From NCBI GenBank assembly GCA_012517315.1, contig JAAYVE010000042.1:1-64000 (forward strand): a stretch of DNA of 64,000 bases. The letters are read 5' to 3'. The notes beneath the pieces are model-generated. The model did not search any database. It was not told the DNA's origin and was given only the letters and a program-made list of their open reading frames with translations. Positions 18,173 through 42,541 of this stretch are shown here, in pieces (positions within the stretch are counted from its first letter, which is position 1; every line of letters begins with the position of its first letter). A program made the translations under genes and the position numbers. Origin of the DNA: Deltaproteobacteria bacterium. GTDB taxonomy: Bacteria > Desulfobacterota > Syntrophobacteria > Syntrophobacterales > Syntrophobacteraceae.

Positions 18173-18762
18173 TCCTTTCCTTCCGTGAGTCCTTGGACGA
18201 TTGGGAAACCCATTTCAAGACCCGATGAACGGTGCGATCTACGGGCCGCTTCCGGCACTTGGCCGTTGGTGCGACACCGGTCGGCAGGGTTGAAGATCCA
18301 CGCCGGAACAAACCGTTGAGGAGACCGCCCCCCTTCTCCGGGGGGGGCTGCGCGATCGAACCAACGTCACTTGGAGGTTCCGTCTGAAGGTCATGCAAGG
18401 GCTGTCCGAGATTTTGGAAAACGAAAAAGCCAGACAGGTTCAGCCGCTCTTCCGAGCTGCCAAAGCCTCCCTGGCTTCATGAATTCAAGGATTGGAAAAC
18501 GGCCTCTTCGCCGTTGTCCAACGGTCAGGAAATGCAGTCGATCAATTTGATGGTGTCAGCCCGATCGGCCGTGATCATAGGGGAGGATGTGCTTCCCTCC
18601 GCCGCTGCTTGGGTTTCCGCTCCAGCGGCGGCGAGCCCTTTGCGAATGGGAGAGTGCTTCCTGCATCCCCGCCCGCATGGGTCCGTCAGGAGGAAGGCCG
18701 CTCACCGCCGGTGAGCCCTTGACAGGAGTGCCCACGTTCGTCGAAACCTCTTCAAAACCCTA
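18173..18762. other. Intergenic stretch between the two FmdE-family genes, with hairpins
   Basis: 590 bases without a gene. It contains a G/C hairpin near 18329-18350, a hairpin CCGCCGCTG / CAGCGGCGG (18599-18631) and a tight hairpin GCTCACC-GCC-GGTGAGC (18700-18716). The last lies 47 bases after the stop of the frameshifted FmdE gene and could slow transcription, but none has a T-run. Open frames here (18492-18805, plus) lack ribosome binding sites. Confidence 0.5.
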
Positions 18763-19861
18763 TCAGCGCAGCTTCCACATGACGCTCCCTCCCGGTCTTG
18801 CATAATTCTTGGGATGATCAGATGCCTCCAGCTTGAATGAGCCGTAAAGCTTCACAAAACGTTCGGGATTGTCCAATCTCCCCAAGTACCAAAGGTCGGC
18901 GCAGAGCTTCCCGACAGCGCTGTGGGAGTATTTGCCGCATCCCGTCTCTTCGATGGAGGCGAAGCTGAAACCCAGAATCAAACCCTGCCACGAACCGTCT
19001 GACTTTCTTCCATAGATGATGTTGGACACGTTGCGGTAGTCCACCGGGGCGTCAGGCCATTGGCTCCGATCTTCCTCTGTGGCATAGGTCACCGCATAAC
19101 CGTTTTTGCCCGGCGTCGCATTGAGCATCACCATGAGGGCGTCCTCCTTGCACCACGGCTGAAGGCCATGGACAAAATAGGCGTTCACCCCCGAACCGGC
19201 GAAATGCTTCTTGACATAATTGGCCAGCATGATGCCCGACGTGACGCCGGGACAATAATGATCATGGAATTCCAACGATCGGATGACGCTTGCGGGTACC
19301 CCGGCGACGATGCCATTGACAATGGTGACAATTCGGAATTCGTTGCCTCCGAAACCGAAATCGAAGGACTTGGGATCAGTGTTGAAAAGATGCTCTGCAT
19401 CGATCCTGGCAAGGGAACGGATGCCGAACAGGCCCCATGTCCTGGAGTGACCCCACACGGCGGGAAGGATTCACTTGGAGATAGGCGCAATTGCCCGAGT
19501 TCCGATCGTAAACGGCAAACCAGAGGGAGGACTCAGGGGCCGAGTGGATCTCCACGAGCGTGTTGGCTCCCCGGCTCACCCGAGTGACCTCGCTCACCCC
19601 GTCCAGCGCACCCATCGTCGATTGTCCCTCAATTTCGGCGTAGCCCGCGTTGGAGAGCACGATGACCATGTTCCGGGCCGGGGATCGCCCGGTCTGCCTT
19701 TTGATCATGGCCACGCCTTCCTCTGCCGCCTGCTTACCGATCGTCTTGAAAATCTCATATGGGGTATTGGAACTGGTTCGGGCCGGTGCGGTGGAACCGG
19801 AGGAAGCCGACAGGATGAACATGACGGCATAAGCGAAACAGCGCCTCAGGATAAGTTTCAT
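18763..19861 (-). pseudogene. Second exported FmdE-family gene, frameshifted
   Basis: The two halves of a paralogue of the neighbouring FmdE-family gene lie in different frames. The N-terminal part (start ATG 19861 behind GGAG; signal peptide MKLILRRCFAYAVMFILSAS) runs in frame to about 19460 and then ends at 19376. The C-terminal part (to 18763) has the intact motif EFHDHYCPGVTSG and matches the paralogue to the end. A TGA in the second frame at 19473-19471 limits the break to roughly 19458-19471, and one extra base explains it. Both halves are well conserved, so this is either a very recent mutation or a sequencing error. If repaired it would encode about 360 residues, shorter than its neighbour in the middle. 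Confidence 0.8.
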
Positions 19862-21767: not shown

Positions 21768-22934
21768 GTGAATCACCCCCAAGCTTCTGGAACCACGTGT
21801 TCGGGACAACCCGTTCGAATTTTGGAAGTGGAGCGGGATGCCGATCTGAAATCTTTCATCGACCTTCCCTGGAAGCTCTATGAAGGGGACCCTAACTGGA
21901 TTCCACCCCTCAAGAGGGAACTGAAGGAACTTCTGGACCCCGGGACGCACCCCTTCTGGCAGTTCAGCGAGCGAGCCCTTTTCCTGGCTTGCCGAGGCAC
22001 GGAGCCCGTGGGGCGGGTCGCGGCGATCGTCAACCACAATCACAACCGTTTCCATAACGAACGGGCAGCGGCTTGGGGGTTCTTCGAATGCGCAAACGAC
22101 AAAGGCGCGGCGGAAGCCCTTTTCTCCAGGGTTCAAAAATGGGGAAAGGAGAAGGGGATGGACATTCTCAGAGGTCCCCTCAACCCATCCACCAACTACG
22201 AAATCGGAATGCTCCTGGAGGGGTTTGACTCGCCTCCCACCTTCATGATGCCGTACAATCCCCCTTATTACCTGGAATTGATAGAGGCCTGCGGTTTTCA
22301 AAAGGAAAAGGACCTCTTGGCCTACTCCGTGGACCGCAATTGGCAGCCCCCCGATTGGGTGGGAAATGTGGCTCGCAAGATTCTCTCCGAAAACAACGTC
22401 CGGGTCAGGCACATCCAGATGGAGAGACTTGAGACCGAGGTCCATCTCATCAAGGAGATCTACCACGACGCCTGGTTCGACAACTGGGGGTTCGTCCCCA
22501 TGACCGACGCGGAGATGGACATGATGGGTCGGAAGCTGAAGCGCATCATCGACCCGAAGCTCGTTTTTTTTATTATGCTGGAGGAACAGCCGGTCGGGGT
22601 GGGTATGATTGTCCCCGACATCAACCCTCTTTTGAGGCACTTCAACGGCCGCATCGGATTGTCCGGCTGGTTCAAATCCCTTTTGCATCGCCGGGAGATC
22701 ACGGGGCTCCGGGGAATGATCTTCGGCATCAAGAAGCGATACCAGCAGATGGGACTTCCCCTGGTCGCCTTCGACTATCTTTACAGAGGCTTGCTTGAAA
22801 ACAGCAGCCTGAGCAGGTATAGAACCCTGGAACTGGGATGGAACCTGGAAGACAATGACCTCATCAATAAGTGGTACGACGATGGCGGAGCAAAGGTTGT
22901 CAAAAAATTCCGAATCTTCAGCAAACGCATCTGA
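21768..22934 (+). CDS. GNAT-fold acyltransferase-like protein (YghO type)
   Basis: 388 residues beginning at GTG 21768, about 10 bases after GGAGG. The layout resembles YghO-like GNAT proteins: an N-terminal segment with LPWKLYEGDPNWIPPLKREL, then GRVAAIVNHNHNRFH and a conserved RGPLNPSTNYEIGMLLEGF block, and a second GNAT-like half. Such proteins transfer acyl groups, but substrates are not known. It lies directly upstream of the giant synthase in the same direction, with 133 bases to the chosen synthase start and overlap with the longest open frame. By context it could take the acyl product or precursor of the synthase; that is inference. Confidence 0.65.
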   Translation: MNHPQASGTTCSGQPVRILEVERDADLKSFIDLPWKLYEGDPNWIPPLKRELKELLDPGTHPFWQFSERALFLACRGTEPVGRVAAIVNHNHNRFHNERAAAWGFFECANDKGAAEALFSRVQKWGKEKGMDILRGPLNPSTNYEIGMLLEGFDSPPTFMMPYNPPYYLELIEACGFQKEKDLLAYSVDRNWQPPDWVGNVARKILSENNVRVRHIQMERLETEVHLIKEIYHDAWFDNWGFVPMTDAEMDMMGRKLKRIIDPKLVFFIMLEEQPVGVGMIVPDINPLLRHFNGRIGLSGWFKSLLHRREITGLRGMIFGIKKRYQQMGLPLVAFDYLYRGLLENSSLSRYRTLELGWNLEDNDLINKWYDDGGAKVVKKFRIFSKRI

Positions 22935-23067
22935 AATAATTCCCAGCGCGGCGAGTTCTCCGGGACACTTCATGGAACGTTCGACGGAGCCAGACGCCGC
23001 TTTTTCATTTGTGTGGCGACTGGCGAACTGCAACCGGAAAGCACTGGAAGCCCATCAAAAGGTCGGA

Positions 23068-26000
23068 ATGCGAATCATTGTGGACGCTTCCGGACTGCCC
23101 ATCGAAGAGGCCATTGACCGCCTCCAGGCCCCCCCTTTTTCAGGTTTCACTGTGGATCTCAAGGTTCCCTTTTCATGGTTTCCTGATCCCCGTTTGGACA
23201 ACCTGCTGAAAAATCCCGGCATGGGAACTCTATGGGTGGAATACCACCCTGTACTTCACGATCTGCCTCTTGAGGTCTTTCTTCGGCGACTGGAAGAGTT
23301 GGATTCCACCCATCCCTGCCGACCGGTCCTCGCAGACACCCGGTGCATCCGGGAGCTTTTGAAAAATCAAGGCGTTGCGGTTTCGGGTTTGGCCATCAAG
23401 GGCTTCGAGGCATCCGGGTTCGTCAGCACCGAGAGCGCCTTTGTTCTTTATGGAGCCATGAGGGCCCTCCTTCGTGAGAGGGGAAGGCGAGCGGAGATCA
23501 CTATCTGGGGAGGCATCGCCACTCCCGAGGCCTGTTCCGCTTTCCTCACCTGCGGTGCCAGGGGGATCGTCTTCGAGAGCGTCCATTGGCTGACGGACCT
23601 CCATCCCTTGGGGGAAGCCACCCGGGAAGCTCTCCGGAAGCTCCACTACGACCAGACGGACGTGGCGGGACTTGGCCTCGGAATTCCCTACCGCGCCCAC
23701 AATCGGGGAAACTCCATTCCTCTTAAGGCGCTGAAAGAGCTTGCTTCGCAGGGGGACTCGAAGAGTTCGGGAACAGGCGCAGGACACAGGCTATTCACGG
23801 AAGCCATCCGGAAACAGGCCGTCCATCCCCTGGACAGCGGGTTTACCAGAAACGAACTTATTCCATTGGGAGTGGAAGCCGCTTTCGCCAGGGAATGGAC
23901 CGAACGTTTCGGCACGGACACGGAGAAGGCTCTGCGCCTTTTCAAGCAGGCGGTGTCGGAACACCACCGCCGGGCCCTTGAGAACCCCAGACCGTTCGAA
24001 AAGAGTCCTGTCGCAGCAGAACTGGGGACCCGATACCCGTTCATCCAGGGCGGGATGTCTTCCATTTCGGACGTGCCGGCCTTCGCTTTGGAAGTGGCCA
24101 AAGCGGGGGGGCTCCCCACCATCGCCCTGGGCTTCATGGACCGGGAAACCATCCACGGCAGGCTTGGCGACCTGAGACGGATCATGGGAGACCGCCCGTT
24201 CGCCCTCAACGTCGTGGCACTCCAGGAGAACCCTTTCCGGAATGAGCAGATGGAATGGATCCGGCAATGCCGCCCGCCCTTCGTGGTCATCGCTGCGGGG
24301 GAGCCTTCCACCGCCCGGGAGATGGCCGGGGAAGGCATCGAAACCATCTACATCGCCCCCACGGAAGATCTCCTGAGAATGGCCCTGGCGGCAGGGATCC
24401 GGTTCATCGTTTTGGAGGGGTGTGAAGCCGGGGGGCACGTAGGGCACCACACGACCTTGACCCTGGCGCAGATGGCCCTCATCCTGCGGCGCTGCAACCC
24501 CGAACTCTGGCGGGACAGGCGGGTGATCCTCGCGGGCGGGATCTGCAATGGGGAAACCGCCTACATGGCGTGGATGCTGGGCGCCGACGCCGTTCAAATG
24601 GGCACCGTCTACCTCGCAACCCGGGAGATCGTGGAAACGGGAGCCCTCACCCGGGTCTACCAGTCCGCCATCACGCAAGCCCCCATGGGCGGGACCGTCA
24701 TCACGGGAGAATCTACGGGGCTGAGAGTCCGATCTCTGAAAACCCCCAAGACCGATGCGATTTGCGCCCTTGAAGAAGAGTACTCCAGGAAGGGGACGGA
24801 TATCCAGGAACACAGGAGAAAGATCGAAGAGCTGTGCGCGGGAAGTCTGCACATTGCGGCCCGAGGCGAGGACAAGTGTTCCTGCACCCCCCTCGACGAC
24901 AACGCTTGCTGGGAAAGGGGCCAGTTCATGAGCGGGGCGTGTTCGGGCACCATTCGGCAAGTCCGCACCGTGGCGGAACTCCACAACGAGCTGGCCTCCG
25001 GTGTTCCCATCCGGCGCAGGACGGACCTTCTCCCGGGCGAGGTGCCGTCGCCTACCCCCGTTTCCCGTAGAAACGGGTCATGGCAGGGCTTTCCCGAACG
25101 CATCGCCATCACGGGCATGAGGATGGTCAATGCTCTGGGAAACACCCTGGAGGAAATCTTTCAGGCGAGTTTGGCCGGCAAATCCGGTATCACTCTGGTA
25201 CCGGCGTCACGGTGGGACCACGGGGCCTATTATCACCCCGTTCCCATGACTCCCGAAAAGACCTACTGCCGGGTGGGAGCCTTCCATCACCTCGAGATCG
25301 CCCGGAAGGACATCGGGGTTCCCCCCCAGGATTTCCGCACCATGACTCATTCCACCAAAATGACCCTTTGGCTGGCCGCGCGGGCGGTGGAGGAGTCGGG
25401 TATCCTCGAGAGCGGCATTCCGCGGGAGCGGATCGGTGTCATCGTCTCTCAAAATTCGGGAGAAGCCGCCTCCACTTTTTCCGACATCGTCATCGGGGGG
25501 GCGGTGGAACCGACGCTGAAGACCGTCCGCCGTTTGCTTCCCCTCTCCCCCGACCAGGAGCAATCCCTCCGGGGAATGCTCAAAGACGGCCACCTTGTGG
25601 TGGACGACACCACCCTGGTGGGACGGCTCAACTGCACCGCCGGGGGATACATCAGCAACAAGTACGGATTTATGGGACCGTCTTTCGCCGTCACCGCCGC
25701 CTGTTCCAGTTCATTGGTGGCGCTCTATAACGCTGTCCTCATGATCCGACTGGGAATCATCGATGCCGCCGTCGTGGGAGGAGGGGAAGAACCCCTGCAC
25801 CCTCTCCACTACCTGGAGTTTTCCGCCCTGGGAGCACTGGCAGGCATCTCCGGTGCGGAACGTCTCCCGGAGCACACCTCCCGTCCCTTCGAAGCCGGAA
25901 GGGACGGCATGGTCCTGGGGGAAGGCGGGGCCATCATCGTCATTGAACGGGAATCCCTGGCGCATGAGAGAGGGGCGAAAATTCACGGTTTCATCACCGG

Positions 26001-29000
26001 TGTGGGAGCGAGCAACAACCCGTACAGTCTCATCGAGTCGTCTCGGGAAAGCCAGGAAATCGCCATTCGGGCCTCCCTTGCGGGTCTTCCCTATGGCCCC
26101 GGGGAAATCGACCTCATCGAATGCCATGCCACTTCCACCACTCAAGGGGACCTGGAGGAAGTGCATGCCATCCGCGCGGTGTTTCCCGCCGACAAGCCGA
26201 CCCTTCTCTCCGCCTTCAAGTCCCAGATCGGCCATACCCTGGGCTCCTCGGGGTTGAACAGTCTCGTTCGTGGTCTGCTGGCCATGGAGGCGGGAGTGAT
26301 CCCACCAACAATCAATTACGACACACCCGACCCGCGACTGGGCCTTGAAGACTCTCGCCTGAGAGTCGTCACGGAACCGGAGGAATGGCGCAGGAGCAAT
26401 GGGCGCCCGAGAAGGATGCAGGTGAACTCCTTCGGTTTCGGGGGGTCCAACTTCGTCATCCAGATTGAGGAATGCCTGGAAACCGCTGGACAATCCCGCA
26501 TCGCCATCCCTCAAGCGGCCCATGCCGCCGCCGAGGCGCTCACCCCCAAACCGGACGTCCTGGAGGGCATTTCCCTGCTCCGGATCGATCACGGTGAGGT
26601 CTCGTACCGGGCGGCTGTCCTCAACGGGTCACCCCAAGAACTGGAAGAAGCCCTCCGACATCTCCGAAACACGCTCCCGGCTGGAGGGATGAGCGACAAG
26701 ACACGGCGTTCCCTCTCGCGGCAGGGCATTTATGTTGAGGCCTCGACGAACGTAGCACCACCGCCCTTGGCCCTGGTTTTTCCCGGCCAGGGATCCCAGT
26801 ACGCCGGTATGGGCCGGGAGCTTTACCACAGCTTCCCCATCGTGCGCGCATGGCTGGAGCGGGCGGACCGGTTGGCCGAGTTCGACCTGCTCAGCCTCTA
26901 CCTGGAAGACCGGGAGGAACAACTGAGGCAGACGCTGTGGCAGCAACCGGCGGCCTACACGCTGGAATATGCCCTCTACCAGCAACTGGTTTCCCTTGGA
27001 ATCCGACCCGTGGCCATGGCGGGCCACAGCCTCGGTGAACTCACAGCCCTTGCGGCGGCGGGGGTGTTCTCTTTTGAAGATGGTTTCCGGCTGGTCACCA
27101 AGCGGGCCCAGTCCATGGACAAGGCATCCAACCAACGCCCGGACCCCGGTGTCATGATGGCCACCGACGCCCCCCTGGATCTCCTGCGGGAGCGGCTGCG
27201 CCAGGCCGGGGAGGTCTTCATCGCCAACATCAATTCCCCGCGCCAGGTGGTCCTGGGGGGAGCTCGAGAAGCAGTGCTCCGGTTCGGTCAGAAACTCAAG
27301 GAACTCGGCTACCGGGCCACTGTTCTGCGGGTGAGCATGGCTTTCCACTGCCCTCTGCTGCCCATCTTCGCCGACGAGATGCGGGCCTTCACAAAGGCTC
27401 TCCACTTCCAGACCCCCGAGATCCCTGTCGTTTCCAACACCATCCGGGTACCGTTCCCCGCCGATCCGGAAAAAATCAAAGAAATCGTGGTGGCCCATCC
27501 CGAATCTCCCGTGTACTGGATGGACAACGTCCTCACCCTTTGGAATGACTACGGAGTGAGGCGATTCGTGGAAATCGGTCCAGGGGCCACCTTGAGCGAT
27601 CTCATTCGGGAAACCCTGGAGGACGCCGACTGCATCGCCACATGCATGCCGGAATCGGAAGGAACCTCCTTCAAGCAGGCCATCGGGGAACTGTTCGTGA
27701 AGGGCCACATTTCCCCGGCAATCCCCGTTGAGGTGGTGACTTTAGACCGGCCTGCCCCTGACGGTGCGAAACCCTCCCCCAAGCCCGAGGCAATCCGGGC
27801 GATGGCGCCCACACCACAAGACCGTCTGGCCGCCCTGGTGCAGCGGGAAATCAACGGCTTTCTGCTGGACACCTTCGGACGCTTTCTGGCGCCTTCAATC
27901 CTCGATGCAGTGCGCAGGGAGATCGATCCGAACATCTCCCCCGAACAGTTGGACGGGATTCTTCAAACCCTTTGCCGGCGATCGCCGCAGACACCTTTCC
28001 TATCCCCCACCCCGCTGTTCTCCACGCCTTTGCCGGCTTCACAACCTGGCATGGAAACCACTCCACCTCCCCCTCCGCCGGTTTCGGAACCGGTCCAACC
28101 TTCTCCCATCGCCAATGCTCCTCCTGGTCCCTCTCCCCTAGGACCCTCCGAAACAGCGGAAGAAGTCATCGGCATCATCATGGAAGTGACAGGATACGAG
28201 AGGGATGAGATCGAGCCCCAGATGGACTTGAGAACCGACCTGGGCATCCGGTCGAGCAGGCTTCCCATCATTGTGGATCGCCTGGAGAAACGGTTTGCAC
28301 TGCGCATCCGTATGGAAGACTTTATCGACGTCCGCACCGTCTCCCAGATGACGGACCGCATTGCTCAGCTGACCACCGGCGGTGTTCCCGAAGCGACTGC
28401 CGGCGGGGAAAAACCTCCTTCCCACTCCCGGACAGTCTCTGAAACCGTTGAAGCGGAAAAAAACCCCGACGAACTGAGGCGCCTCGTTTTTCGCCCCGTT
28501 TCCGTGGAAATGGAAGAGGGTTCCATGCCTTCTCTCTCCTCTGAAAACACCGTCGCGATCCTCCCTCCCGCTTCCGACTCTCCGATGGGGAAAGAACTCT
28601 CCCAGTGGATTCAGGAGCGATTCGGGGCCAAGGTGAAGAGTTTCCCCTGGCTGCCCACAGAAGGGGAAGAATCCCGCGTAAGACGGGGGGTTGTCGGTAT
28701 TTCGTCCGAAGGCTCATTGTTCAACGCCGTGGACACCTTTCTCAAGGAGCACCCGGCGGAGGTCTTCTGCATCCCCATCGATGGGAGTGTGGATCGCCAC
28801 CTCGAAAGTGCGGAGGACGTCTGTCGCTTGCAGGAACAACTCTTTCTCCTGGTCCAGGCCATCCTGGCCTCCCCCCCCGTTCGGTCCATTCTCCTCCTGG
28901 GGGACGACACAACGCCGTCCTTGTGGCGAGAGGTCCTCTGGGACGGACTGGTGGGCATTTTCCTGGCCGCCGCTCTGGAATATCCCTCCGTTCGTTTCAG

Positions 29001-30999
29001 AAGCGTCCGCGCAAAAGAGGGTACCGACTTTTCCCGGCTGCTCGCCACAGCACTGCAGACAAAACAGGCACCAGTGGAACTGACCGTGGGCGGCAACGGA
29101 GCGACAACCCTCGGGGGGCGCAGGGAACCCTTCACACTCCCCCACCCCCCTAACTTCTCCCTGAGTGCGGGGGACGTGATCCTCGTGTCCGGAGGCGGCT
29201 ACGGCATCACCGCCCAACTGGTGCGGTCCCTCGCTCCGTTCGGCACCAGGGTGGTCCTTCTCGGACGCACGTCCATCGATTTGCCCGAACAAACGGCGAG
29301 GCACCTCCAGACAGAGGAGTTCTCGGAGAAGGCTTTGCGCTGGGACATCATGCAGATGCATCCATCCATCGGCCTGGATGATCTCAACGCGCAGGTGGAG
29401 CGTTTTCACAAGGCCAGGCAAGTGTACCGCACGGTCCGGGATCTTCGCGAGTCCGGAATCGACGTAGAGTACACGGCCTGCGACGTCTCGGACCCCACCC
29501 AAGTGAAAGCGGCCGTGGGCGGGGTGATTGAGCGATTCGGCAGAGTGGACGGAGTCATCCACGGAGCCGGCGTGCTCCACGACAAGTACCTTGCAGATCT
29601 GGACGGGCGAGCTTTCAGAAAAGTGGTGGATGTGAAGGTTCTGGGCGCCTGGAACCTCTATGAGGCGACTCGCTCCGCCGGCTTGAAGTTTTTCGTGGGT
29701 CTCTCGTCCATTGTGGCTGTCCAGGGAAACATGGGCCAGACCAATTACGCCTCGGGCAACCGCATGATGTCCCGTTTGCTGGAGAACCTCTCCCGGCAGC
29801 ATGCCGGGGTGGTCTTCAAGGCACTCATGCTGCCCCCCGTCAGCGGCGGCGGAATGGCGGAAGACCCGGAGGTCCGCGACCTGCTGGAACATCTGGGCGT
29901 CGGGTATGTGGGGATGAGAGAGCTTTCGGAGATGTTTTGGAGGGAAATCTTCTGCGGGTCTCCGGCCGACGTTTGGGTGATGTGGATGAAATCCCTTCCA
30001 CCCGCCAGGACGGTCCTCCTTGAAGGAGTCAATTTGCCGGATGCTCCCGACAGTGCGCCCAACACTCTCTGCGAAACGGATCCGCGCGACTTTCCCATGG
30101 TGGACGCCATCGAACGACTGGACCTGGAGAGCGCAATGGTGCAGGTACGCCGGGCGTTTTCCCTGGACAAGGACCCGTGGGTCTCCCAGCACAAACCCTT
30201 CAAATTCCTCAAGCACCCCCTCGTTTCCGCCATCATGGTCGTGGAGAGCTTCCTGGAGGCCACCCGGCTCCTTTTCCCCTATCTCACCGTTTCGCAAGCG
30301 CGGGACATCCGTTTCATGGATCCCATCGAAGTAGGCCCCGACACGGAGCGGGTCGCCCGTGTCACCTGCAGCCGGCGGCAGGAAGGAAAGGACATGCTCT
30401 GTGAATGCACCATGGAGGTGTACGGGGTTTCCCCCGGAGGCCGGCGCCTGGAGACGCTCGCACCGTGCTACCGTGCCCTTGTGCTCGCCACCGCCGGAGC
30501 TCCGGAACCACTGGATCGTTTGGTTTCCTTTCCCATCCCGGCTGGTGAATTTATTGGGCGTCCCATGGAAAAGCAGGAGATCCTCGACTGGTACGATAAG
30601 CGTTCCGACATGCAGGGCCTGTATCGGGTGCTGGAACACATCGACGGCTACGGCGATTCCATCATCTCGGGAAAGATGATCTATCCTCAAGACAGGGAAT
30701 TTTCCTTCACAGACGCTCCTGCAGCTTCGTACCCCCGGTATGCCCTGGAAGGGCTGATGCAGCTTTGCAGCTACTACGTGGTGATGCGGGACGAATCGGA
30801 GTCCCGTGCCATGATCCCGGCAAGGGTGGAGGAACTGCACTGGTACCGGTTCTGCTCGGGTGGTGAGGACATCAAACTGGAAGCCCGCTGCCGTCAAGAG
30901 GATGAAAGGGGCCTCGTATGGGATGCTCTGGCCTCAGGGCGTGATGGCCGTCCCATTTTGGAAGCGCGGGGAATCCACATGCGCTGGTTCGCTCTTTAG
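23068..30999 (+). CDS. Giant multidomain fatty-acid/polyketide (PUFA-synthase-like) synthase
   Basis: About 2643 residues. Domain order: a TIM-barrel domain like a degenerate nitronate monooxygenase (1-240); an intact NMO/PfaD-like enoyl-reductase domain (about 320-570; GCEAGGHVGHH near 452); a Cys-rich linker; ketosynthase (677-1150; C879 in TAACSSS, H1020, H1056); acyltransferase (1237-1550; S1321 in GHSLGE, H1427); Pro-rich linker; ACP (S1729); ketoreductase (2037-2300; Y2227 in TNYASGN); and a double-hotdog dehydratase (2360-end; H2375/H2383). One polypeptide could therefore load, extend, reduce and dehydrate. No thioesterase is present, so release must be in trans. The start is uncertain: ATG 23068 has AAAGG, but 22972 and 22855 are in frame. 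It is flanked by a GNAT protein and its own PPTase. Confidence 0.92.
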   Translation: MRIIVDASGLPIEEAIDRLQAPPFSGFTVDLKVPFSWFPDPRLDNLLKNPGMGTLWVEYHPVLHDLPLEVFLRRLEELDSTHPCRPVLADTRCIRELLKNQGVAVSGLAIKGFEASGFVSTESAFVLYGAMRALLRERGRRAEITIWGGIATPEACSAFLTCGARGIVFESVHWLTDLHPLGEATREALRKLHYDQTDVAGLGLGIPYRAHNRGNSIPLKALKELASQGDSKSSGTGAGHRLFTEAIRKQAVHPLDSGFTRNELIPLGVEAAFAREWTERFGTDTEKALRLFKQAVSEHHRRALENPRPFEKSPVAAELGTRYPFIQGGMSSISDVPAFALEVAKAGGLPTIALGFMDRETIHGRLGDLRRIMGDRPFALNVVALQENPFRNEQMEWIRQCRPPFVVIAAGEPSTAREMAGEGIETIYIAPTEDLLRMALAAGIRFIVLEGCEAGGHVGHHTTLTLAQMALILRRCNPELWRDRRVILAGGICNGETAYMAWMLGADAVQMGTVYLATREIVETGALTRVYQSAITQAPMGGTVITGESTGLRVRSLKTPKTDAICALEEEYSRKGTDIQEHRRKIEELCAGSLHIAARGEDKCSCTPLDDNACWERGQFMSGACSGTIRQVRTVAELHNELASGVPIRRRTDLLPGEVPSPTPVSRRNGSWQGFPERIAITGMRMVNALGNTLEEIFQASLAGKSGITLVPASRWDHGAYYHPVPMTPEKTYCRVGAFHHLEIARKDIGVPPQDFRTMTHSTKMTLWLAARAVEESGILESGIPRERIGVIVSQNSGEAASTFSDIVIGGAVEPTLKTVRRLLPLSPDQEQSLRGMLKDGHLVVDDTTLVGRLNCTAGGYISNKYGFMGPSFAVTAACSSSLVALYNAVLMIRLGIIDAAVVGGGEEPLHPLHYLEFSALGALAGISGAERLPEHTSRPFEAGRDGMVLGEGGAIIVIERESLAHERGAKIHGFITGVGASNNPYSLIESSRESQEIAIRASLAGLPYGPGEIDLIECHATSTTQGDLEEVHAIRAVFPADKPTLLSAFKSQIGHTLGSSGLNSLVRGLLAMEAGVIPPTINYDTPDPRLGLEDSRLRVVTEPEEWRRSNGRPRRMQVNSFGFGGSNFVIQIEECLETAGQSRIAIPQAAHAAAEALTPKPDVLEGISLLRIDHGEVSYRAAVLNGSPQELEEALRHLRNTLPAGGMSDKTRRSLSRQGIYVEASTNVAPPPLALVFPGQGSQYAGMGRELYHSFPIVRAWLERADRLAEFDLLSLYLEDREEQLRQTLWQQPAAYTLEYALYQQLVSLGIRPVAMAGHSLGELTALAAAGVFSFEDGFRLVTKRAQSMDKASNQRPDPGVMMATDAPLDLLRERLRQAGEVFIANINSPRQVVLGGAREAVLRFGQKLKELGYRATVLRVSMAFHCPLLPIFADEMRAFTKALHFQTPEIPVVSNTIRVPFPADPEKIKEIVVAHPESPVYWMDNVLTLWNDYGVRRFVEIGPGATLSDLIRETLEDADCIATCMPESEGTSFKQAIGELFVKGHISPAIPVEVVTLDRPAPDGAKPSPKPEAIRAMAPTPQDRLAALVQREINGFLLDTFGRFLAPSILDAVRREIDPNISPEQLDGILQTLCRRSPQTPFLSPTPLFSTPLPASQPGMETTPPPPPPVSEPVQPSPIANAPPGPSPLGPSETAEEVIGIIMEVTGYERDEIEPQMDLRTDLGIRSSRLPIIVDRLEKRFALRIRMEDFIDVRTVSQMTDRIAQLTTGGVPEATAGGEKPPSHSRTVSETVEAEKNPDELRRLVFRPVSVEMEEGSMPSLSSENTVAILPPASDSPMGKELSQWIQERFGAKVKSFPWLPTEGEESRVRRGVVGISSEGSLFNAVDTFLKEHPAEVFCIPIDGSVDRHLESAEDVCRLQEQLFLLVQAILASPPVRSILLLGDDTTPSLWREVLWDGLVGIFLAAALEYPSVRFRSVRAKEGTDFSRLLATALQTKQAPVELTVGGNGATTLGGRREPFTLPHPPNFSLSAGDVILVSGGGYGITAQLVRSLAPFGTRVVLLGRTSIDLPEQTARHLQTEEFSEKALRWDIMQMHPSIGLDDLNAQVERFHKARQVYRTVRDLRESGIDVEYTACDVSDPTQVKAAVGGVIERFGRVDGVIHGAGVLHDKYLADLDGRAFRKVVDVKVLGAWNLYEATRSAGLKFFVGLSSIVAVQGNMGQTNYASGNRMMSRLLENLSRQHAGVVFKALMLPPVSGGGMAEDPEVRDLLEHLGVGYVGMRELSEMFWREIFCGSPADVWVMWMKSLPPARTVLLEGVNLPDAPDSAPNTLCETDPRDFPMVDAIERLDLESAMVQVRRAFSLDKDPWVSQHKPFKFLKHPLVSAIMVVESFLEATRLLFPYLTVSQARDIRFMDPIEVGPDTERVARVTCSRRQEGKDMLCECTMEVYGVSPGGRRLETLAPCYRALVLATAGAPEPLDRLVSFPIPAGEFIGRPMEKQEILDWYDKRSDMQGLYRVLEHIDGYGDSIISGKMIYPQDREFSFTDAPAASYPRYALEGLMQLCSYYVVMRDESESRAMIPARVEELHWYRFCSGGEDIKLEARCRQEDERGLVWDALASGRDGRPILEARGIHMRWFAL

Positions 31000-31149
31000 A
31001 AGCCGTGAAGCCGAGGGACACCCCCGCCATTGACCGGAAGACCGAATAGAGAACGACCGATGGATTCTGCGACGCTCCCTCCGGGAATGTCAGGGGGGAT
31101 TCGGCCGGCTGCAATTGAAAACACAGCTCGGGAAAGGAGCCCCTCGACG

Positions 31150-31932
31150 ATGGCGATCCAGGGGTTGACGATGCACGGGGAAGATACACCTCTCGCCCTG
31201 TCCCTTGGGGGATTCGGTTTTTCAGTGGCATCCACGTTGCTGCCCGACGGCTCCCATTCGAAGGTACCCCGATCGGTCGGTTCCCGTGCCGCACGGGACC
31301 GCCTCGTTTCCCACCTCCTGAGTCGATCCCGTCGCCCGGACGGTAGTTCTGTCTCAGGTCTCTGCAACATTCACTCCGAGGATCACCGGTGGAACGTTGT
31401 GTACGACTCACTTGGGAAGCCGCACCTAAACCACCCTGAGAGTTCGTGGCCGGCCGTTTCCATGAGCTACAGCGGAGGTCGCCTGTGGGTGGCCGTGGGG
31501 GGCAGCTCCGTCCGCCTGGGACTGGATGTGGCGAGTCCCGAGGATTTCACCGGGGACTATCCCTTTTCGCGCGCTTTCACGGAACGAGACTGGTCCGCCC
31601 TTCCAGAAGGTTTCGAAACGTATACGCCGAGGGCGTGTGCTTTTCTCTGGTCTTTAAAGGAAGCCGCCGTCAAGTGCATTGGGAGCGGATTCCACCGGTT
31701 CGGCCCGTGGGAAATGTCTGTGCAGAGGGCGACGGGGAAAGGGGAGAAATCAAGGTTTCGGGTTTGCTTCCATGCACTCGATGCTCAACTGGCCCAGGTG
31801 CTGGATTCTCTCCCGGTGATGGCCGCTGCTTGGCCTGCAGGGGAATCCTGGCTGGCCCTGGCCTGTTGCGGTCGTTCCGCAGCGGCCCCCCTGCGGCGAC
31901 TCCTTTTGCACCGAAGGAGCGCAATCCCGTGA
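31150..31932 (+). CDS. Sfp-type 4'-phosphopantetheinyl transferase
   Basis: A 260-residue protein with the PPTase signature: LGLDVASPEDF with D126, and FLWSLKEAAVK (W167, K170, E171, K175), which bind magnesium and CoA. GKPHL near residue 89 and SMSYSGG near 105 match the GKP and SLSH-type motifs. It would attach phosphopantetheine to the ACP of the synthase encoded 150 bases upstream. I chose ATG 31150 behind AAAGGAG; the frame is open to 31030. Its stop overlaps the next start as GTGA. A synthase-linked PPTase argues for secondary-lipid rather than housekeeping fatty-acid synthesis. Confidence 0.85.
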   Translation: MAIQGLTMHGEDTPLALSLGGFGFSVASTLLPDGSHSKVPRSVGSRAARDRLVSHLLSRSRRPDGSSVSGLCNIHSEDHRWNVVYDSLGKPHLNHPESSWPAVSMSYSGGRLWVAVGGSSVRLGLDVASPEDFTGDYPFSRAFTERDWSALPEGFETYTPRACAFLWSLKEAAVKCIGSGFHRFGPWEMSVQRATGKGEKSRFRVCFHALDAQLAQVLDSLPVMAAAWPAGESWLALACCGRSAAAPLRRLLLHRRSAIP

Positions 31933-32912
31933 AAGCTCTCGTGACGGGGGGATCCGGGTTCGTGGGAAGCCACCTGGCGCAAGCCTTGGTCCGCGAGGGG
32001 TGGGAGGTGACGTGCGTGGTGCGCCGAAGCAGTTCCCTGAGATGGCTGCGAGGTCTCCCTGTGGAATACCTCCCGATGGACCTGGTGCGACCCTCAGGAC
32101 TGCGGCAGGCGTTGATGGACGTGGACGTGGTTTTCCACGTGGCGGGAGTGACCAAGGGCACCCGACGGGAAGACTTCTTCCGGGGGAACGCTCTGACGAC
32201 GAGAAGCCTGGTCCAGGCCTGCATGGAAAGCGGAAACGAACGTCTGCGGTTCATTCATGTCTCCAGCCTTTCGGCGGCGGGCCCGGCACCGGACGGACGC
32301 CCCCGCCGGGAAGAGGATCCCCCCGCACCGGTCTCCTGGTACGGCCGATCGAAACTCCTGGCCGAAGAGGCCGTCCTGCGCGCTTTTCCCCCTGAAGCCT
32401 TGAGGATCCTCCGGCCTCCCGTCGTCTACGGGCCGAGGGACCTGGATTTCCTTCAGGTGTTCCGGTGTGTCGCCTTGGGTTTTTGCCCCGTGGCGGGACG
32501 GGGTGAACAGAAAATCCAGTTCATTCACGTGAACGACCTGATCCGGGGAATTCTGCTGGCCGCAAAATGCCAGGAACCGGTGGGACCGGTTTTCTTCCTG
32601 TCCGGGGAAGGCGCCTTCGACTGGCTCACCGTGGCGAACGCCGTGGGACGGGCGGTGGGCCGGACTCCTGTGCCGCTTCCTGTTCCCATCCCCGTCCTGC
32701 GGGGAGTGGGCGCCTTGGGGACCCTTCTGGGGCGGGCGACGGGCAAAGCCGTGGTCCTCAATTCCGACAAGGTGAAAGAAGGCGCTCAGCCCAACTGGCT
32801 TTGCAGCAGTGACAAGGCACGGAAAGAATTGGGCTTCCAGGCCGTTGTGCCTTTTGAAGAAGGATTGGCATCCACCGCCTCCTGGTACCGCCGTGCGGGG
32901 TGGCTTTCGTGA
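31929..32912 (+). CDS. NAD-dependent epimerase/dehydratase (extended SDR)
   Basis: A 327-residue extended short-chain dehydrogenase: Rossmann motif TGGSGFVGSHLA at the N-terminus, VFHVAGVTKG, catalytic YGRSK near residue 140, and RPPVVYGPRD. This group includes sugar epimerases and dihydroflavonol/3-beta-hydroxysteroid-type reductases, so the substrate could be a nucleotide sugar or a keto lipid made by the synthase. It starts at GTG 31929, overlapping the PPTase stop (GTGA), behind AAGGAG. Confidence 0.88.
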   Translation: MKALVTGGSGFVGSHLAQALVREGWEVTCVVRRSSSLRWLRGLPVEYLPMDLVRPSGLRQALMDVDVVFHVAGVTKGTRREDFFRGNALTTRSLVQACMESGNERLRFIHVSSLSAAGPAPDGRPRREEDPPAPVSWYGRSKLLAEEAVLRAFPPEALRILRPPVVYGPRDLDFLQVFRCVALGFCPVAGRGEQKIQFIHVNDLIRGILLAAKCQEPVGPVFFLSGEGAFDWLTVANAVGRAVGRTPVPLPVPIPVLRGVGALGTLLGRATGKAVVLNSDKVKEGAQPNWLCSSDKARKELGFQAVVPFEEGLASTASWYRRAGWLS

Positions 32913-33781
32913 AAGCGACGGAAGAGGGAGTTCGGCAGCCCGTGAAACCGACTTTGAGCGTGGTCATCCCGGTGCTCAACGAAGCCCATCACCTGTCGGA
33001 ACTGCTGCCCCTGCTGTTCCGCCAGGATCACCCGCCTGTGGAAGTGCTGGTGGCCGACGCCGGTTCATCTGACGATTCCCGGGAGGTGGCGATGACCTTG
33101 GGGGCAAGGGTCGTCACCGGGGGAAAACCGGCAGCGGGGCGCACCGCCGGAGCACTGGCGGCTTGGGGGGAATGGGTTTGTTTTCTTGACGCAGACACCC
33201 GGCTACCCCATGAACGGCTCTTCGGGCAGGCCCTTTCCCAAGTCTTGGCATGGGGCGTCGTGGGAGCCGTTGCCGACAATCGGGCCTATTACCGCCCCGG
33301 GGATAAGGGATGGGATCGTTGGTGGGTCCGGGCCTGGGACCGGTTCCTTCTGGCCTTCCTCAACAACGGCCAACGAGCTTGGCTGCAGGCTGGCTTTCCC
33401 GTTGGACAGGCCGTCTTCATGCTCGTCCGACGGGACGTGTTCGTCCAGGTGGGGGGGTTCGATTCAAAGGCTGAACCATACGAGGACTCGGAACTTCTCC
33501 TGCGTTTACACCGGCGCATCCCACCGCCGGCAGGCCGTCGTTCTTCGGTGGGAGTCCTTTCACCCCCTCTTCACGTGCTCATTTCCACAAGGCGCTGGGA
33601 TGTGAAGGGGAGGTTGTGGTTTCCCATCTCACTGGGAGTACGGGGCTCTCTTTTCCGCTGGCTTCTCCGGCGGGAACTCCCTATCCCCGATTACTGGGAA
33701 CTCAATGCACAGGCTGCGTACCGGGAGCGCCCCTCCGCAGCTGCCACGATCCACGGGGAAAAGGAGAAGAGGGTCCCGTGA
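32909..33781 (+). CDS. Glycosyltransferase family 2 (TarQ/hopene-associated type)
   Basis: About 290 residues. The GT2 core is LSVVIPVLNEAHHLSELL, VADAGSSDDS and FLDADTRLP. Then PVGQAVFMLVRRDVF and GGFDSKAEPYEDSELLLRL are typical of GT2 enzymes with the TIGR04283-like start. The C-terminus is basic and amphipathic, with little sign of full transmembrane helices apart from one near LWFPISLGVRGSLFRWLL. The GTG at 32909 overlaps the SDR stop as GTGA; a GTG at 32900 is also possible. By position it could glycosylate the product of the megasynthase. Confidence 0.82.
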   Translation: MKATEEGVRQPVKPTLSVVIPVLNEAHHLSELLPLLFRQDHPPVEVLVADAGSSDDSREVAMTLGARVVTGGKPAAGRTAGALAAWGEWVCFLDADTRLPHERLFGQALSQVLAWGVVGAVADNRAYYRPGDKGWDRWWVRAWDRFLLAFLNNGQRAWLQAGFPVGQAVFMLVRRDVFVQVGGFDSKAEPYEDSELLLRLHRRIPPPAGRRSSVGVLSPPLHVLISTRRWDVKGRLWFPISLGVRGSLFRWLLRRELPIPDYWELNAQAAYRERPSAAATIHGEKEKRVP

Positions 33782-34767
33782 AATGCATCGTCACCATTGA
33801 TGTGGAGGAAGAGGGGCTTTTTTCAGGGAAATATCCACAAAGGCCCGATGGGGTGAAGAACGTCCGGGAGCTCCGCCGCCTGGAATTCCTCCCCAGAGAA
33901 CTCGGTTTTCCCCTCACTCTCCTGGTCACCTACCCCGTGATCCAGGATCCCCGCTGCCGTGAGGTTCTGCAACACTGGCGCAGAAATCTGGACATTGAAA
34001 TCGGGGCTCACCTTCACCCATGGAGCACCCCCCCATACGACCCTATTCCGGGGAGGAAGGAACCGGTCCCTTCGGACGGGATTCCCTATCCCCTACTCCA
34101 AAATAAGCTGGAGAGTCTCCTCGGCGCGCTGGACAAACACTTGGGAATTCACCCGACCGCTTTTCGCATGGGACGTTTCGACTTGGGCCGCCGCATCCTG
34201 GGATTGATTCCCCGATACGGCATCACCGTGGATAGCAGCATCGTCCCCCTCCGTTCCGTCGCCGGCGGGCCGGACCATTTTCTCTTCCCCGCCGACCCGT
34301 TCCGGCTTAGGGGGGGCAAAGGGGATTTACAAGCTGTCGTGGAGGCCCCTCTCACCCTGCTTCCCGTGAGAACCTCCTGGGCCGAGGGGATCTACCGGCT
34401 CGCCGCCCCGATGCCAAGCTGGAAGAGGGACGCGGTTATGACCACTTTCCGTTACCTGGCCGTGGTGGGAACCCAACCCGCCTGGTTTCCCCTCTTTTCC
34501 ATGATGTGGGCCACCGGACTCCACAGGAAGAGAGGCGGCCGGTACCTCACCGTCTTCCTCCACTCCTCCGAACTATGCCCAGGGGCAACCCCGGCCTTTC
34601 GTCACCAAAAGGCGGTGGAACGACTGGTTGGAAGAATCCGTTCCTATTTCCAGTGGCTCAGAAGAACCGGATGTGTGGAGGGAGCCGTCCTGTCCAGCCT
34701 TGAGGAGGAAACAGGCTTGCCATGGGTGAACATGGACCGGCTTCAGCGACCCGGCCAATCCTCCTGA
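33778..34767 (+). CDS. Polysaccharide deacetylase-like protein
   Basis: 329 residues starting KCIVTIDVEEEG, which fits the metal-binding Asp motif of NodB/CE4 deacetylases of the TIDVE kind. GAHLHPW supplies the expected His ligands, and FRMGRFDLGRRIL and SSIVPLRS fit the rest of the barrel. These enzymes remove acetyl groups from amino sugars. It starts at GTG 33778, overlapping the previous stop (GTGA) behind AAGGAG. It is the last gene of the tightly coupled four-gene chain that follows the synthase. It has no signal peptide, so a cytoplasmic, lipid-linked sugar is the likely substrate. Confidence 0.75.
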   Translation: MKCIVTIDVEEEGLFSGKYPQRPDGVKNVRELRRLEFLPRELGFPLTLLVTYPVIQDPRCREVLQHWRRNLDIEIGAHLHPWSTPPYDPIPGRKEPVPSDGIPYPLLQNKLESLLGALDKHLGIHPTAFRMGRFDLGRRILGLIPRYGITVDSSIVPLRSVAGGPDHFLFPADPFRLRGGKGDLQAVVEAPLTLLPVRTSWAEGIYRLAAPMPSWKRDAVMTTFRYLAVVGTQPAWFPLFSMMWATGLHRKRGGRYLTVFLHSSELCPGATPAFRHQKAVERLVGRIRSYFQWLRRTGCVEGAVLSSLEEETGLPWVNMDRLQRPGQSS

Positions 34768-34955: not shown

Positions 34956-36017
34956 ATGAAAGTTCTCCGTGACCCCCCCCCCGTGGCTGTTCTCATTTTG
35001 AATTACAACGGAATGCGCTTCCTCCCCGAGTGTCTCGCCTCCGTGAGGGAAAACGCTTATCCCGCCACCGACGTGTATCTCATCGACAACGCGTCGCACG
35101 ACGCGTCCGTCTCCTGGGTCAGGGCACATGAACCCACCGTGGGGATCTTTCAGAACACCGCAAACCTCGGGTTCGCCCCCGCCTACGATCATGCTGTGCG
35201 GTTCTTGGTGGACTACCGGTACCATGTTCTCCTGAACAACGACACGGTGGTGGAGAGAGACTGGCTGGTGCAGCTGGTGCAAGCGGCGGAGCTGGATGAC
35301 CGCGTCGCCGCCTGTGGGTCGAAAATCCTCATGATGCACGACCGAAGCCTCATCGACCACGCCGGAGGACTTTTCACCTGGATCGGGTCAGGTCTCGACA
35401 TGGGCAAATGGACGACAGATAAAGAAAAGGACACAAAGGCTCGGGAAACGGGATTCGGGTGCGGCGCATCCCTTCTGGTGAGGCGAAGCGCCTACCTGGA
35501 CGTGGGGGGCTTCGACACCGCCTACACCATGTATCACGAGGACGTGGACCTCTGCTGGCGGCTGCGCATGGCCGGCTATTCCGTGTTGCATGTCCCGTCT
35601 TCCGTGGTCTATCACCACGGCGGCGGGATCGATCGCCAGGGCATCGACCTCCATCCGGCCCGCACCTGTTTCTGCCAGAGAAACCGGCTGGCCAACATTT
35701 TTAAGAACATGCCTGCGGGACGCATCCCTTTGGCCATGGCAGTCTCCGCCGTGTACGACGCGGTCCGGATTGCAAGGCTGGCGGCACTGGGAAGACGAAA
35801 CGTCGTGGAGGCCATTTTGCGGGGATATAGGGAGGCTTTCGCTTCTGCTGGGAGTATGCTGAGAAAAAGGAAAGATTTCCTCTCCCGGGTCAATGTGGCC
35901 CAAGAACGGGCATTGCCCTTCCTGGCTTCGATCCCCTCTTCCGCATCCGCCTATCGATGCATGCTCCAAGCTCAGAGGGCACGAGGGACGGCGCAGCGAA
36001 ACCAGGATGGTCACTGA
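34956..36017 (+). CDS. Glycosyltransferase family 2 (rhamnosyltransferase-like)
   Basis: 353 residues with VAVLILNYNGMRFLPECL, YLIDNASHDAS, the DXD-like LLNNDTVVERDWL, and GGFDTAYTMYHEDVDLCWRL, the usual layout of WbbL/RfbN-like rhamnosyltransferases. Start at ATG 34956 with a poor ribosome binding site; an in-frame TTG lies at 34947. Its stop overlaps by 7 bases the stop of the convergent gene on the minus strand. Confidence 0.85.
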   Translation: MKVLRDPPPVAVLILNYNGMRFLPECLASVRENAYPATDVYLIDNASHDASVSWVRAHEPTVGIFQNTANLGFAPAYDHAVRFLVDYRYHVLLNNDTVVERDWLVQLVQAAELDDRVAACGSKILMMHDRSLIDHAGGLFTWIGSGLDMGKWTTDKEKDTKARETGFGCGASLLVRRSAYLDVGGFDTAYTMYHEDVDLCWRLRMAGYSVLHVPSSVVYHHGGGIDRQGIDLHPARTCFCQRNRLANIFKNMPAGRIPLAMAVSAVYDAVRIARLAALGRRNVVEAILRGYREAFASAGSMLRKRKDFLSRVNVAQERALPFLASIPSSASAYRCMLQAQRARGTAQRNQDGH

Positions 36018-37312
36018 ACAAGGGGATTCTCCCCGGGTTGCGTCTCCTTCACGCCATCAAGGGCAAGTCTTTCCCCGGGTGCACAGGACGTCTCCTGCGC
36101 CGCCGTTCCATTGGCGTGTTTGTGCCCGTTTCTCTGAAGGATGCGGGTGAGGAGCAGCTCAAACATCCCCATGGCTTCCAGGAGCATTCCCCCCAGCACG
36201 AGGAAAGACCCTACGCTCAGATAGGACCAGTGGTAAGTGATATGGCCGGTGCTGATGTATTCCAGGAGAACCCCACCGTTCAAAACGACCCCGGCGAGGA
36301 TAGGGAAGATCCCTGCAATCAGCATGCTCTTGGTCGAACAGACGGTGAGGAGAAACCGCTCCATGAAAGACCGCCTGTGGCTGCTCCGGTTGAGCACTTC
36401 CGCCACCCGCTCCGCCACGATTCCGATGGTGAGAAGAATGACCCCGGCCAGGGCGGCCGCATTGATGGCGATGAGTCGATAAATGAAGTGGGCTGGGATG
36501 ACCCCGCGCAGGACATAGGTGTGGAACGGTCCAAGGCTGTAGAGGAACGCGACGAAAAAGAGCAGCGCCGCCGTCCACCCGAAGAATTTGAGGGGCCGAT
36601 AGGTGAGGGCGATTTCCAGGATGCTGTGGAGGAACCGGACCCCGTCCTTTATGACCTTCAGTTTTGATTTTCCCACCCGCTCGCTGTAGGGAATGGGGAC
36701 CTCCAGGATGGTCACCCCGTCCTGGAGGATGGCCCTGCAGCTCATGGCCGGGGTGAAATGGAGCCCGTCGGGGAGGGGATAGAGCTTGGGAAGGGAATCC
36801 CTACGCAGCACCCTCATGCCGCTCGCCGTGTCCGATATGTGACGTGTGGCCAGGTGGGAGAGAAGAATGGAATACAGGCGATTGCCCGCCCTGCGGATCC
36901 AGGGCATCCTGCTCTCTTTGTGCAAGCGGGATCCCAGGACCACGTCCGCCCCTTCGTGGACGGCCACGTTGCACAGGTCCACAAACCACTCGGGATCGCA
37001 GGTCCCGTCGGCGTCCATGAACCCCAGCAGGTCTCCCGAAGCCTTGGAGAAGCCGAGTTTGATGGCTGCACCATAGCCCTTGTTCTTTGGGTAAGCCACC
37101 ACACAGACCCCGGGGTACGATCGGGCGATCTCGGCGGTCCGGTCCGTGCTCCCGTCGCTCACCACAATGAGTTCAACAGACTCCAGGGGCGTTCGGCGGG
37201 TGATGCTCCCCACCGCCGCCAGGCACCTCTCCAAAGTACACCCGATGGATTCTTCCTCGTTGTACGCAGGAATCACGATGCTGAGACTTTTCGCCTGGAA
37301 TGCCTGGGTCAT
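36011..37312 (-). CDS. Membrane-linked glycosyltransferase family 2 (dolichol-phosphate-mannose-synthase type)
   Basis: 433 residues. The N-terminal GT-A domain (LSIVIPAYNEEESIG, VVSDGSTDRT, GFMDADGTCDPEW) is followed by about four to five transmembrane segments in the C-terminal 200 residues (TAALLFFVAFLYSL and LIAINAAALAGVILLT among them). This form transfers sugar from a nucleotide to a polyprenyl phosphate. The ATG at 37312 (MTQAFQAKSLSIV) was preferred to 37342. It converges on the preceding plus-strand gene with overlapping stops. Confidence 0.85.
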   Translation of the reverse strand: MTQAFQAKSLSIVIPAYNEEESIGCTLERCLAAVGSITRRTPLESVELIVVSDGSTDRTAEIARSYPGVCVVAYPKNKGYGAAIKLGFSKASGDLLGFMDADGTCDPEWFVDLCNVAVHEGADVVLGSRLHKESRMPWIRRAGNRLYSILLSHLATRHISDTASGMRVLRRDSLPKLYPLPDGLHFTPAMSCRAILQDGVTILEVPIPYSERVGKSKLKVIKDGVRFLHSILEIALTYRPLKFFGWTAALLFFVAFLYSLGPFHTYVLRGVIPAHFIYRLIAINAAALAGVILLTIGIVAERVAEVLNRSSHRRSFMERFLLTVCSTKSMLIAGIFPILAGVVLNGGVLLEYISTGHITYHWSYLSVGSFLVLGGMLLEAMGMFELLLTRILQRNGHKHANGTAAQETSCAPGERLALDGVKETQPGENPLVQ

Positions 37313-37455
37313 TTGTTTCCGTTCCGGTCCTGTGCAAGGCATTACGAAAAACTAGTCAGCCCGGCCCCTCGAGCCGCTTGCCGTCGGGATGGATGCAACG
37401 TCGGTGGTACAGCCCCTCGAAATGTCCCCCCTTGTACTCCACCGCGGAAGCAATT

Positions 37456-38409: not shown

Positions 38410-38412
38410 TGT

Positions 38413-39858: not shown

Positions 39859-40162
39859 AAGAAACCGCTCAACCCTCTCTGGATCACAAAACTGGGAGAC
39901 CTTGTCCTGAGCCGCGCATTATGGAGTCCACCGCGCACGACTGTCAATGTCTATGTGCGCGGAAGACTTCCCGGGGCCGTCCCTGACAGGGGGAAATCGT
40001 GCGGTCACTCAGCGTTTTCTCACACACAGTGAAAGGAATGTGATAGAGAGTCTTGCTTGCTGCTGGCGGCCCATCTTTTTCCCATGCAAGGGTGAATCTA
40101 TGGCTGGCGTTTCCTGAAAAATCACGCGTCCATACGAAGATCAAACAGGAGTATATGATTTC
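39859..40162. other. Divergent intergenic region
   Basis: 304 bases between the minus-strand radical SAM operon and the plus-strand double glycosyltransferase. It must carry promoters for both, but I found no site near consensus on either strand. An AT-richer part lies at 40065-40160. Confidence 0.5.
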
Positions 40163-42463: not shown

Positions 42464-42541
42464 ACACTCTACGAGAAGCTCAGGTGAGGATCGGCTTCCT
42501 GTCATGCCCCTGGTGTCTCAAATCCCTGCAAAACACATCAG

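Follow-up and report, generated by a model that had tools for sequence, protein, structure and literature searches.

The stretch of DNA analysed here, 64,000 nucleotides from a Deltaproteobacteria bacterium of the family Syntrophobacteraceae (GenBank assembly GCA_012517315.1, contig JAAYVE010000042.1, positions 1 to 64,000; "the window" throughout), carries an operon organized around one very large gene for an iterative type I fatty-acid/polyketide synthase, called SYN below. All genes lie on the + strand, in the order GNAT–SYN–PPTase–SDR–GT2–deacetylase-like, where PPTase stands for 4'-phosphopantetheinyl transferase. Overlaps of 4-13 nt between neighboring open reading frames, ORFs (31929/31932, 32900/32912, 33778/33781), indicate that these form one coupled operon. 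The genes, and the domains of SYN, are as follows.

21768..22934, +: GNAT-fold acyltransferase (P0002), placed in the bacterial ceramide-synthase (bCerS) family by synteny, fold and clade; sole copy in the genome
22855..30999, +: SYN, single-polypeptide iterative type I fatty-acid/polyketide synthase, from the ORF, Pfam and relatives
23002..23844, +: within SYN, degenerate NMO-like barrel (catalytic His replaced by Phe189, by Trp in one relative), from alignment and model
24007..25014, +: within SYN, FabK-type FMN enoyl reductase (GGHVG, His528), from Pfam and Foldseek (best matches FabK/TM0800, 27-28% identity)
25096..26466, +: within SYN, ketosynthase (Cys950, His1091, His1127), from Pfam and active-site residues
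26767..27645, +: within SYN, acyltransferase (GHSLGE; MAFH motif, as in malonyl-type acyltransferases), from Pfam and motifs
28162..28362, +: within SYN, single acyl carrier protein (IRS motif, Ser1800), from Pfam and the active-site residue
29179..29802, +: within SYN, ketoreductase (catalytic Ser/Tyr/Asn present), from Pfam and alignment
30082..30999, +: within SYN, C-terminal double-hotdog dehydratase (His2446, Glu2632/Gln2636), from a weak Pfam PS-DH match, active-site residues and the orthologue in genome G019
31030..31932, +: PPTase, from Pfam (PF01648) and its WSLKEAAVK motif
31929..32912, +: extended SDR, HpnA/CerR-like, from Pfam (PF01370); homologues adjoin Spt-GNAT pairs in other phyla (Spt, serine palmitoyltransferase)
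32900..33781, +: GT2 glycosyltransferase, from Pfam (PF00535); adjoins the synthase only in this genus
33778..34767, +: deacetylase-like protein without a family match, from motifs only; adjoins the synthase only in this genus
34956..36017, +: second GT2, from Pfam; same operon end in the congener G001, and beyond the end of the operon as initially annotated

The SYN ORF (22855-30999) spans 2,714 residues uninterrupted by stops; the true start is probably a little downstream (22882 or 22972), as the similarity to relatives sets in at about residue 50. The domain order is NMO-like, FabK-type enoyl reductase (ER), ketosynthase (KS), acyltransferase (AT), acyl carrier protein (ACP), ketoreductase (KR) and dehydratase (DH), with Pfam matches at residues 388-633 (NMO), 748-1155 (KS), 1308-1597 (AT), 1770-1836 (ACP) and 2109-2316 (KR). 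The C-terminal PS-DH match is weak (2631-2710, E 5e-5, slightly short of the cut-off), and the same domain passes the cut-off in the G019 orthologue (E 1.4e-10). By alignment, the catalytic residues of KS, AT, ACP, KR, DH and the FabK-type ER are intact, and the predicted domain content includes no thioesterase. The initial annotation, made from the sequence, had described one large protein with these domains in such an operon, and the ORF, the Pfam matches and the active sites confirm it; the view of SYN as a lipid-type iterative synthase with an N-terminally fused ER and its own PPTase is likewise borne out. Among the neighbors, the GNAT-type protein, PPTase, SDR and GT2 were named correctly, but the name "deacetylase" found no confirmation: the protein at 33778-34767 contains the deacetylase-like motifs TIDVEE and HLHP, and matched nothing in Pfam, with the threshold relaxed to E = 1, or in NCBIfam at 0.01.

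Ahead of the NMO match, the degenerate NMO-like stretch (residues 50-330) is kept in all relatives. Its motif KG.E(A/S/V)(S/A)G(F/W) replaces the EG.E(A/S)GGH of the active domain, so that the catalytic His of this first domain is lost. For the predicted structure of residues 50-720, FabK enoyl reductases are the top match (27-28% identity), and PfaD ranks far lower.

These details separate SYN from two groups of known synthases. Polyunsaturated fatty acid (PUFA) synthases (Pfa) and heterocyst glycolipid synthases (Hgl), which make up Types A-F (PMC3098273), share with it the KS-AT-ACP-KR core, a separate PPTase and an FMN enoyl reductase; SYN differs in that its ER is fused and FabK-like, not PfaD-like, and in having one PP-binding stretch, a single KS and a single domain of PS-DH type, in contrast to the tandem ACPs, KS-CLF and two FabA-like DH domains of Pfa. 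Against the PfaA model TIGR02813 it scores 418.6 bits (cut-off 1010.1). With a single ACP, no KS-CLF and a score below that cut-off, SYN was rejected as a PUFA synthase, and of its initial description as PUFA-synthase-like only general homology is left.

The N-terminal ER fusion had also been taken as a departure from the usual PUFA-synthase-like clusters; an NMO-type reductase fused to KS-AT-ACP-KR is, however, already known from the Type P (ArsA-like) secondary-lipid synthases of Beijerinckia and Azotobacter (PMC3098273). These carry the same NMO pair–KS–AT–ACP–KR on one polypeptide and have a PPTase and an ABC exporter nearby, a likeness that would make SYN a starter synthase for phenolic lipids. 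We consider this extremely improbable. Type P systems have type III polyketide synthase (PKS) partners (KAS III/type III-like genes adjoin the Beijerinckia synthase), whereas PF00195 (type III PKS) gave no match above the cut-off in our genome, and the phenolic-lipid route was rejected on that ground. Type P synthases also differ in having two ACP stretches in Beijerinckia and no C-terminal DH detected by Pfam, and in the tree the Type P-like and SYN clades are separate (100/100).

Co-linear homologues of SYN, 41-70% identical, occur in about 30 other genomes, so its architecture is not a product of chance. In whole-genome searches, SYN was present in 6 of the 25 other family members, 13 of 394 other genomes sampled from the phylum, and 9 of 86 from the L076 family; the named loci belong to metagenome-assembled genomes (MAGs) of Desulfobacterota (Desulfobacula, Desulfotignum, Desulfomonile, Syntrophaceae, Desulfuromonadales) and to one Nitrospirae MAG. 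A PPTase follows SYN in nearly all loci (exceptions: G139, G285, G379a and G001), and the GNAT touches SYN in about 21 of the 34 loci whose sequence extends to that side, in several Desulfobacterota families and one Nitrospirota MAG. G362, from another family, has the same GNAT-SYN-PPTase-SDR order as the window. On the SYN tree, GNAT adjacency is not monophyletic (4 changes vs. 11.1 in shuffles), and we dropped the reading that a single clade has the GNAT. Two genomes, G224 (C243, C106) and G379 (C67, C20), have two SYN each, one GNAT-linked and one not.

Travel with the synthase, initially suggested as a check for PPTase, GT2 and deacetylase, holds for the PPTase and also for the GNAT, across families and phyla. 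It fails for the GT2, the deacetylase-like gene and the second GT2, which adjoin SYN elsewhere only in G001; in at least 20 other loci SYN is accompanied by GNAT and/or PPTase but not by the GT2 and the deacetylase-like gene, so that homologous synthases regularly do without these two, though not without the PPTase. This bears on the initial view of the product, a non-sphingolipid glycolipid analogous to heterocyst glycolipids, with SYN making the lipid part and GT2 and deacetylase finishing it. The overlaps of the operon's ORFs with both genes speak for it, as do about 7 kb of amino-deoxysugar genes inserted between SYN and PPTase in G001. This interval (L038:6088-12523) encodes a DegT aminotransferase, a GT2, a 312-aa protein, a hexapeptide/FdtA fusion and a 786-aa unknown; the window has no amino-deoxysugar genes at the same place. 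We found no sugar genes beside SYN in any of the other loci read, and a glycolipid would leave the link between GNAT and Spt, described below, without explanation; as a general account of SYN it is quite unlikely. A glycosylated product is nonetheless possible in this genus, because G001 adds genes of DegT and FdtA type. The informative neighbor is instead the GNAT, which by its relatives points to ceramide (sphingolipid) synthesis.

P0002 has no family in Pfam or NCBIfam, and a PDB sequence search with it returned no match at E = 10; its AlphaFold model, of moderate confidence (pLDDT 70), matches tandem GNAT folds. Genomic context is more telling. In 35 genomes of the phylum sample a gene of the P0002 family lies directly next to Spt on the same strand, downstream in 35 of 35 cases and never directly upstream. 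On Rubrobacter and Streptomyces plasmids, P0002 homologues (38% and 36% identical) sit between an alpha-oxoamine synthase (AONS) and an extended SDR, giving the order Spt-GNAT-SDR, and the extended SDR of the window is 36-39% identical to these SDRs, in a fold common to many SDRs. A Roseomonas homologue follows LptF/LptG and precedes a nucleotidyltransferase, an arrangement that matches the CC_1156-CC_1153 gene order around Caulobacter cerS, CC_1154 (PMC11324152). On these grounds of synteny, fold and clade, P0002 is probably a member of the bacterial ceramide-synthase family. The same ceramide-synthase-like GNAT family includes Escherichia coli YghO, at 32% identity (H25, H27, H28).

In the GNAT tree, which left out the GNATs of SYN genomes G308, G345 and G357, most GNATs of SYN genomes form their own clade (100/100), apart from those linked to Spt. 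The clade includes G410, G340 and G139, whose GNATs do not adjoin SYN; the G021 GNAT falls outside it, that of G045 is placed as Spt-linked, and L074 carries one GNAT of each type. The separate subclade suggests an adaptation of the SYN-type GNAT to the acyl-ACP of SYN.

Our genome has one Spt-like gene (G000:C10:79275-80573), on the same contig and 48 kb downstream of SYN, with serine palmitoyltransferase as its best PDB match (333 bits vs. 242 for the next kind). It is accompanied by an exporter comprising a MacB-type permease, an ATPase, and TolC-type and HlyD-type proteins. This Spt-exporter operon is common to our genome, G267, G045 and G224, and ends in a GNAT in the latter three; the GNAT is absent from its end in our genome, G001, G362 and G379, and in three of these (ours, G362 and G379) the SYN-linked GNAT is the only one found. 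In two Desulfobacteraceae genomes, G485 and G486, the link is direct: GNAT-SYN-PPTase-ABC2-ABC2-radical SAM-x-Spt form a single run, with an SDR after Spt in G485, whose Spt scores 386 bits to solved serine palmitoyltransferases (296 for the next kind). By coordinates, Spt also lies in the same cluster as SYN in G421/G423. In G019 a fusion of fatty-acyl-AMP ligase, ACP and AONS lies 4 kb from SYN (L030:12521-16159, a large protein whose AMP-ligase, ACP and alpha-oxoamine synthase parts are recognized by Pfam), and G021 has a large protein of similar length (L062:8446-11844) in which the AONS part was matched. These two proteins probably unite the functions of Caulobacter aasR-acpR-spt on one polypeptide.

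Taken together, the adjacent PPTase, the intact catalytic residues, the bCerS-family GNAT before SYN, the CerR-like SDR after it, and Spt with its exporter on the same contig make it probable that SYN serves a bacterial sphingolipid pathway of the ceramide type as its dedicated fatty-acid synthase, a type I enzyme that works iteratively and with full reduction. In the Spt-bCerS-CerR pathway of Caulobacter, acyl-ACP is supplied by an acyl-ACP synthetase (AasR) and AcpR (PMC11087976, PMC11324152); Spt, a GNAT-type acyltransferase and an NAD-dependent SDR are all present here as well, and the difference is the addition of a dedicated de novo type I synthase. In such a pathway, the PPTase would prime Ser1800 of the ACP, whose motif is present, and the AT, given its MAFH motif and known AT specificity rules, would load malonyl units. 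KS, KR, DH and ER, with their catalytic residues in place, would then run full reduction cycles, presumably yielding a saturated long acyl-ACP. Since SYN has no thioesterase, this chain would be off-loaded onto an amine by the GNAT or condensed by Spt. In the former case, the GNAT would take the chain from the ACP and N-acylate the 3-keto long-chain base made by Spt, the SDR would reduce the keto group as CerR does, and the exporter, judging from gene context, would move the lipid. In this genus a sugar head group may follow, with GT2 and the deacetylase-like protein adding and trimming it. Quite possibly, though we stop short of calling it probable, SYN in anaerobic Desulfobacterota and the Nitrospirota MAG makes the N-acyl chain de novo and passes the acyl-ACP to a co-evolved GNAT, which would uncouple the ceramide amide chain from ordinary fatty-acid synthesis.

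The main competitor assigns the chain to Spt. In Pseudomonas fluorescens MYb115, the two-gene PKS/AOS cluster PfSgaAB, reported in 2025, makes PKS-derived sphingolipids, with the PKS feeding Spt (PMC12134224). It is the closest known concept to SYN: both combine an iterative type I synthase, an Spt-type alpha-oxoamine synthase and an SDR, and a sphingolipid product is proposed by the same logic. The systems differ in the bCerS-family GNAT, the PPTase and often an exporter that accompany SYN, and in its N-terminal FabK-type ER, SgaA being compared by description only. By analogy, SYN would supply a polyketide-type acyl-ACP that Spt condenses with an amino acid, and the GNAT would use ordinary fatty acids. 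The PfSgaA/PfSgaB precedent, fumonisin-type logic and the presence of Spt within the SYN gene run of G485 and G486 favor this. However, besides the PPTase it is the GNAT that most often touches SYN, Spt belongs to a separate exporter operon in our genome, G001, G362 and G379, and in G019 and G021 the AONS belongs to a larger protein, which in G019 also contains an AMP-ligase and an ACP of its own, a point in favor of free fatty acids as the source there. A long-chain base built on the SYN chain is therefore the less likely outcome, ranking below the GNAT route.

Co-occurrence across genomes supports a ceramide pathway with SYN as its synthase: Spt is found in 13 of 14 genomes with SYN vs. 64 of 381 without (Fisher, 2.9e-9), and GNAT in 13 of 14 vs. 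96 of 381 (Fisher, 3.3e-7), in tests that ignore shared ancestry. Several points weigh against such a pathway. SYN occurs in G285 although both Spt and GNAT are missing there. In our own genome, Spt is separated from SYN by the 48 kb noted above, and about 13 loci have no GNAT adjoining SYN. Synthases that lie beside an NAD_binding_4 SDR and radical SAM proteins, where the GNAT is absent, are exceptions to be explained. P0002 was assigned by means other than alignment to Caulobacter CC_1154, and the CerR label of the extended SDR derives from SDR family and context. The pathway is proposed from genes and sequence, and so is the fate of the SYN chain as N-acyl chain or long-chain base.

If the co-occurrence with Spt were a lineage effect, the GNAT might N-acylate some other amine, in an amino-acid, sugar or polyamine lipid. 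Members of its family do occur in many genomes without a strong Spt match, and the family also includes E. coli YghO. We regard this as unlikely, given that Spt is the upstream gene in all 35 adjacent pairs and lies inside the SYN gene run of G485/G486.

Sphingolipids were long thought typical of animals and plants. Genes for them have since turned up in tens of bacterial phyla, and our results suggest that in some bacteria the chains of these lipids come from a machine dedicated to building them. A metalipidome of the Black Sea ties the 1-deoxyceramides and sulfono-lipids of euxinic waters to Desulfobacterota and/or Bacteroidota (PMC11334938). If our reading is true, a dedicated type I synthase linked with a bCerS-family acyltransferase would explain genetically the unusual ceramide chains of anaerobes, and the PKS-sphingolipid link, so far PfSgaAB, would gain a second architecture and another entry point. 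It would also give a likely function to the otherwise unnamed P0002/YghO protein family, and culturable sulfate reducers allow the SYN-ceramide link to be tested. Searching the literature for type I synthases among the sphingolipid gene clusters of sulfate reducers, we found only the PfSgaAB and Black Sea papers to be relevant, and in the literature searched we did not find a single-chain ER-KS-AT-ACP-KR-DH synthase described as a stable partner of a bCerS-family GNAT in Desulfobacterota.

Some SYN loci show further variation. In L033, L170, L173 and L184 (SYN of G017, G410, G340 and G285), a divergent SDR of the acyl-reductase-like NAD_binding_4 type replaces the adjacent GNAT, and some of these loci also carry a B12/radical-SAM-like protein; the product of these synthases may be a fatty alcohol or other lipid. 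In several relatives (L172, L074 and L194), a 280-aa protein without a Pfam family lies between GNAT and SYN (71-74% identical). The N-terminal NMO pair is also present in very large relatives of SYN (2,843-3,068 aa) from L080, L081 and L083 (Melainabacteria, Obscuribacterales and an unnamed bacterium), and in all three another large PKS-like ORF comes next.

An Rfam scan of the window gave no match. Upstream of the operon, on the - strand (15325-19458), a SPASM radical SAM protein is encoded beside two FmdE-family proteins. Downstream, the lipid operon directly adjoins a polysaccharide/O-antigen region (36011-44911) with GT2 and GT4 genes, a B12-radical SAM protein, an ABC-2 permease and a Wzt-type ATPase; within the polysaccharide region, positions 46961-49309 (+ strand) encode a 782-aa protein without a Pfam match.

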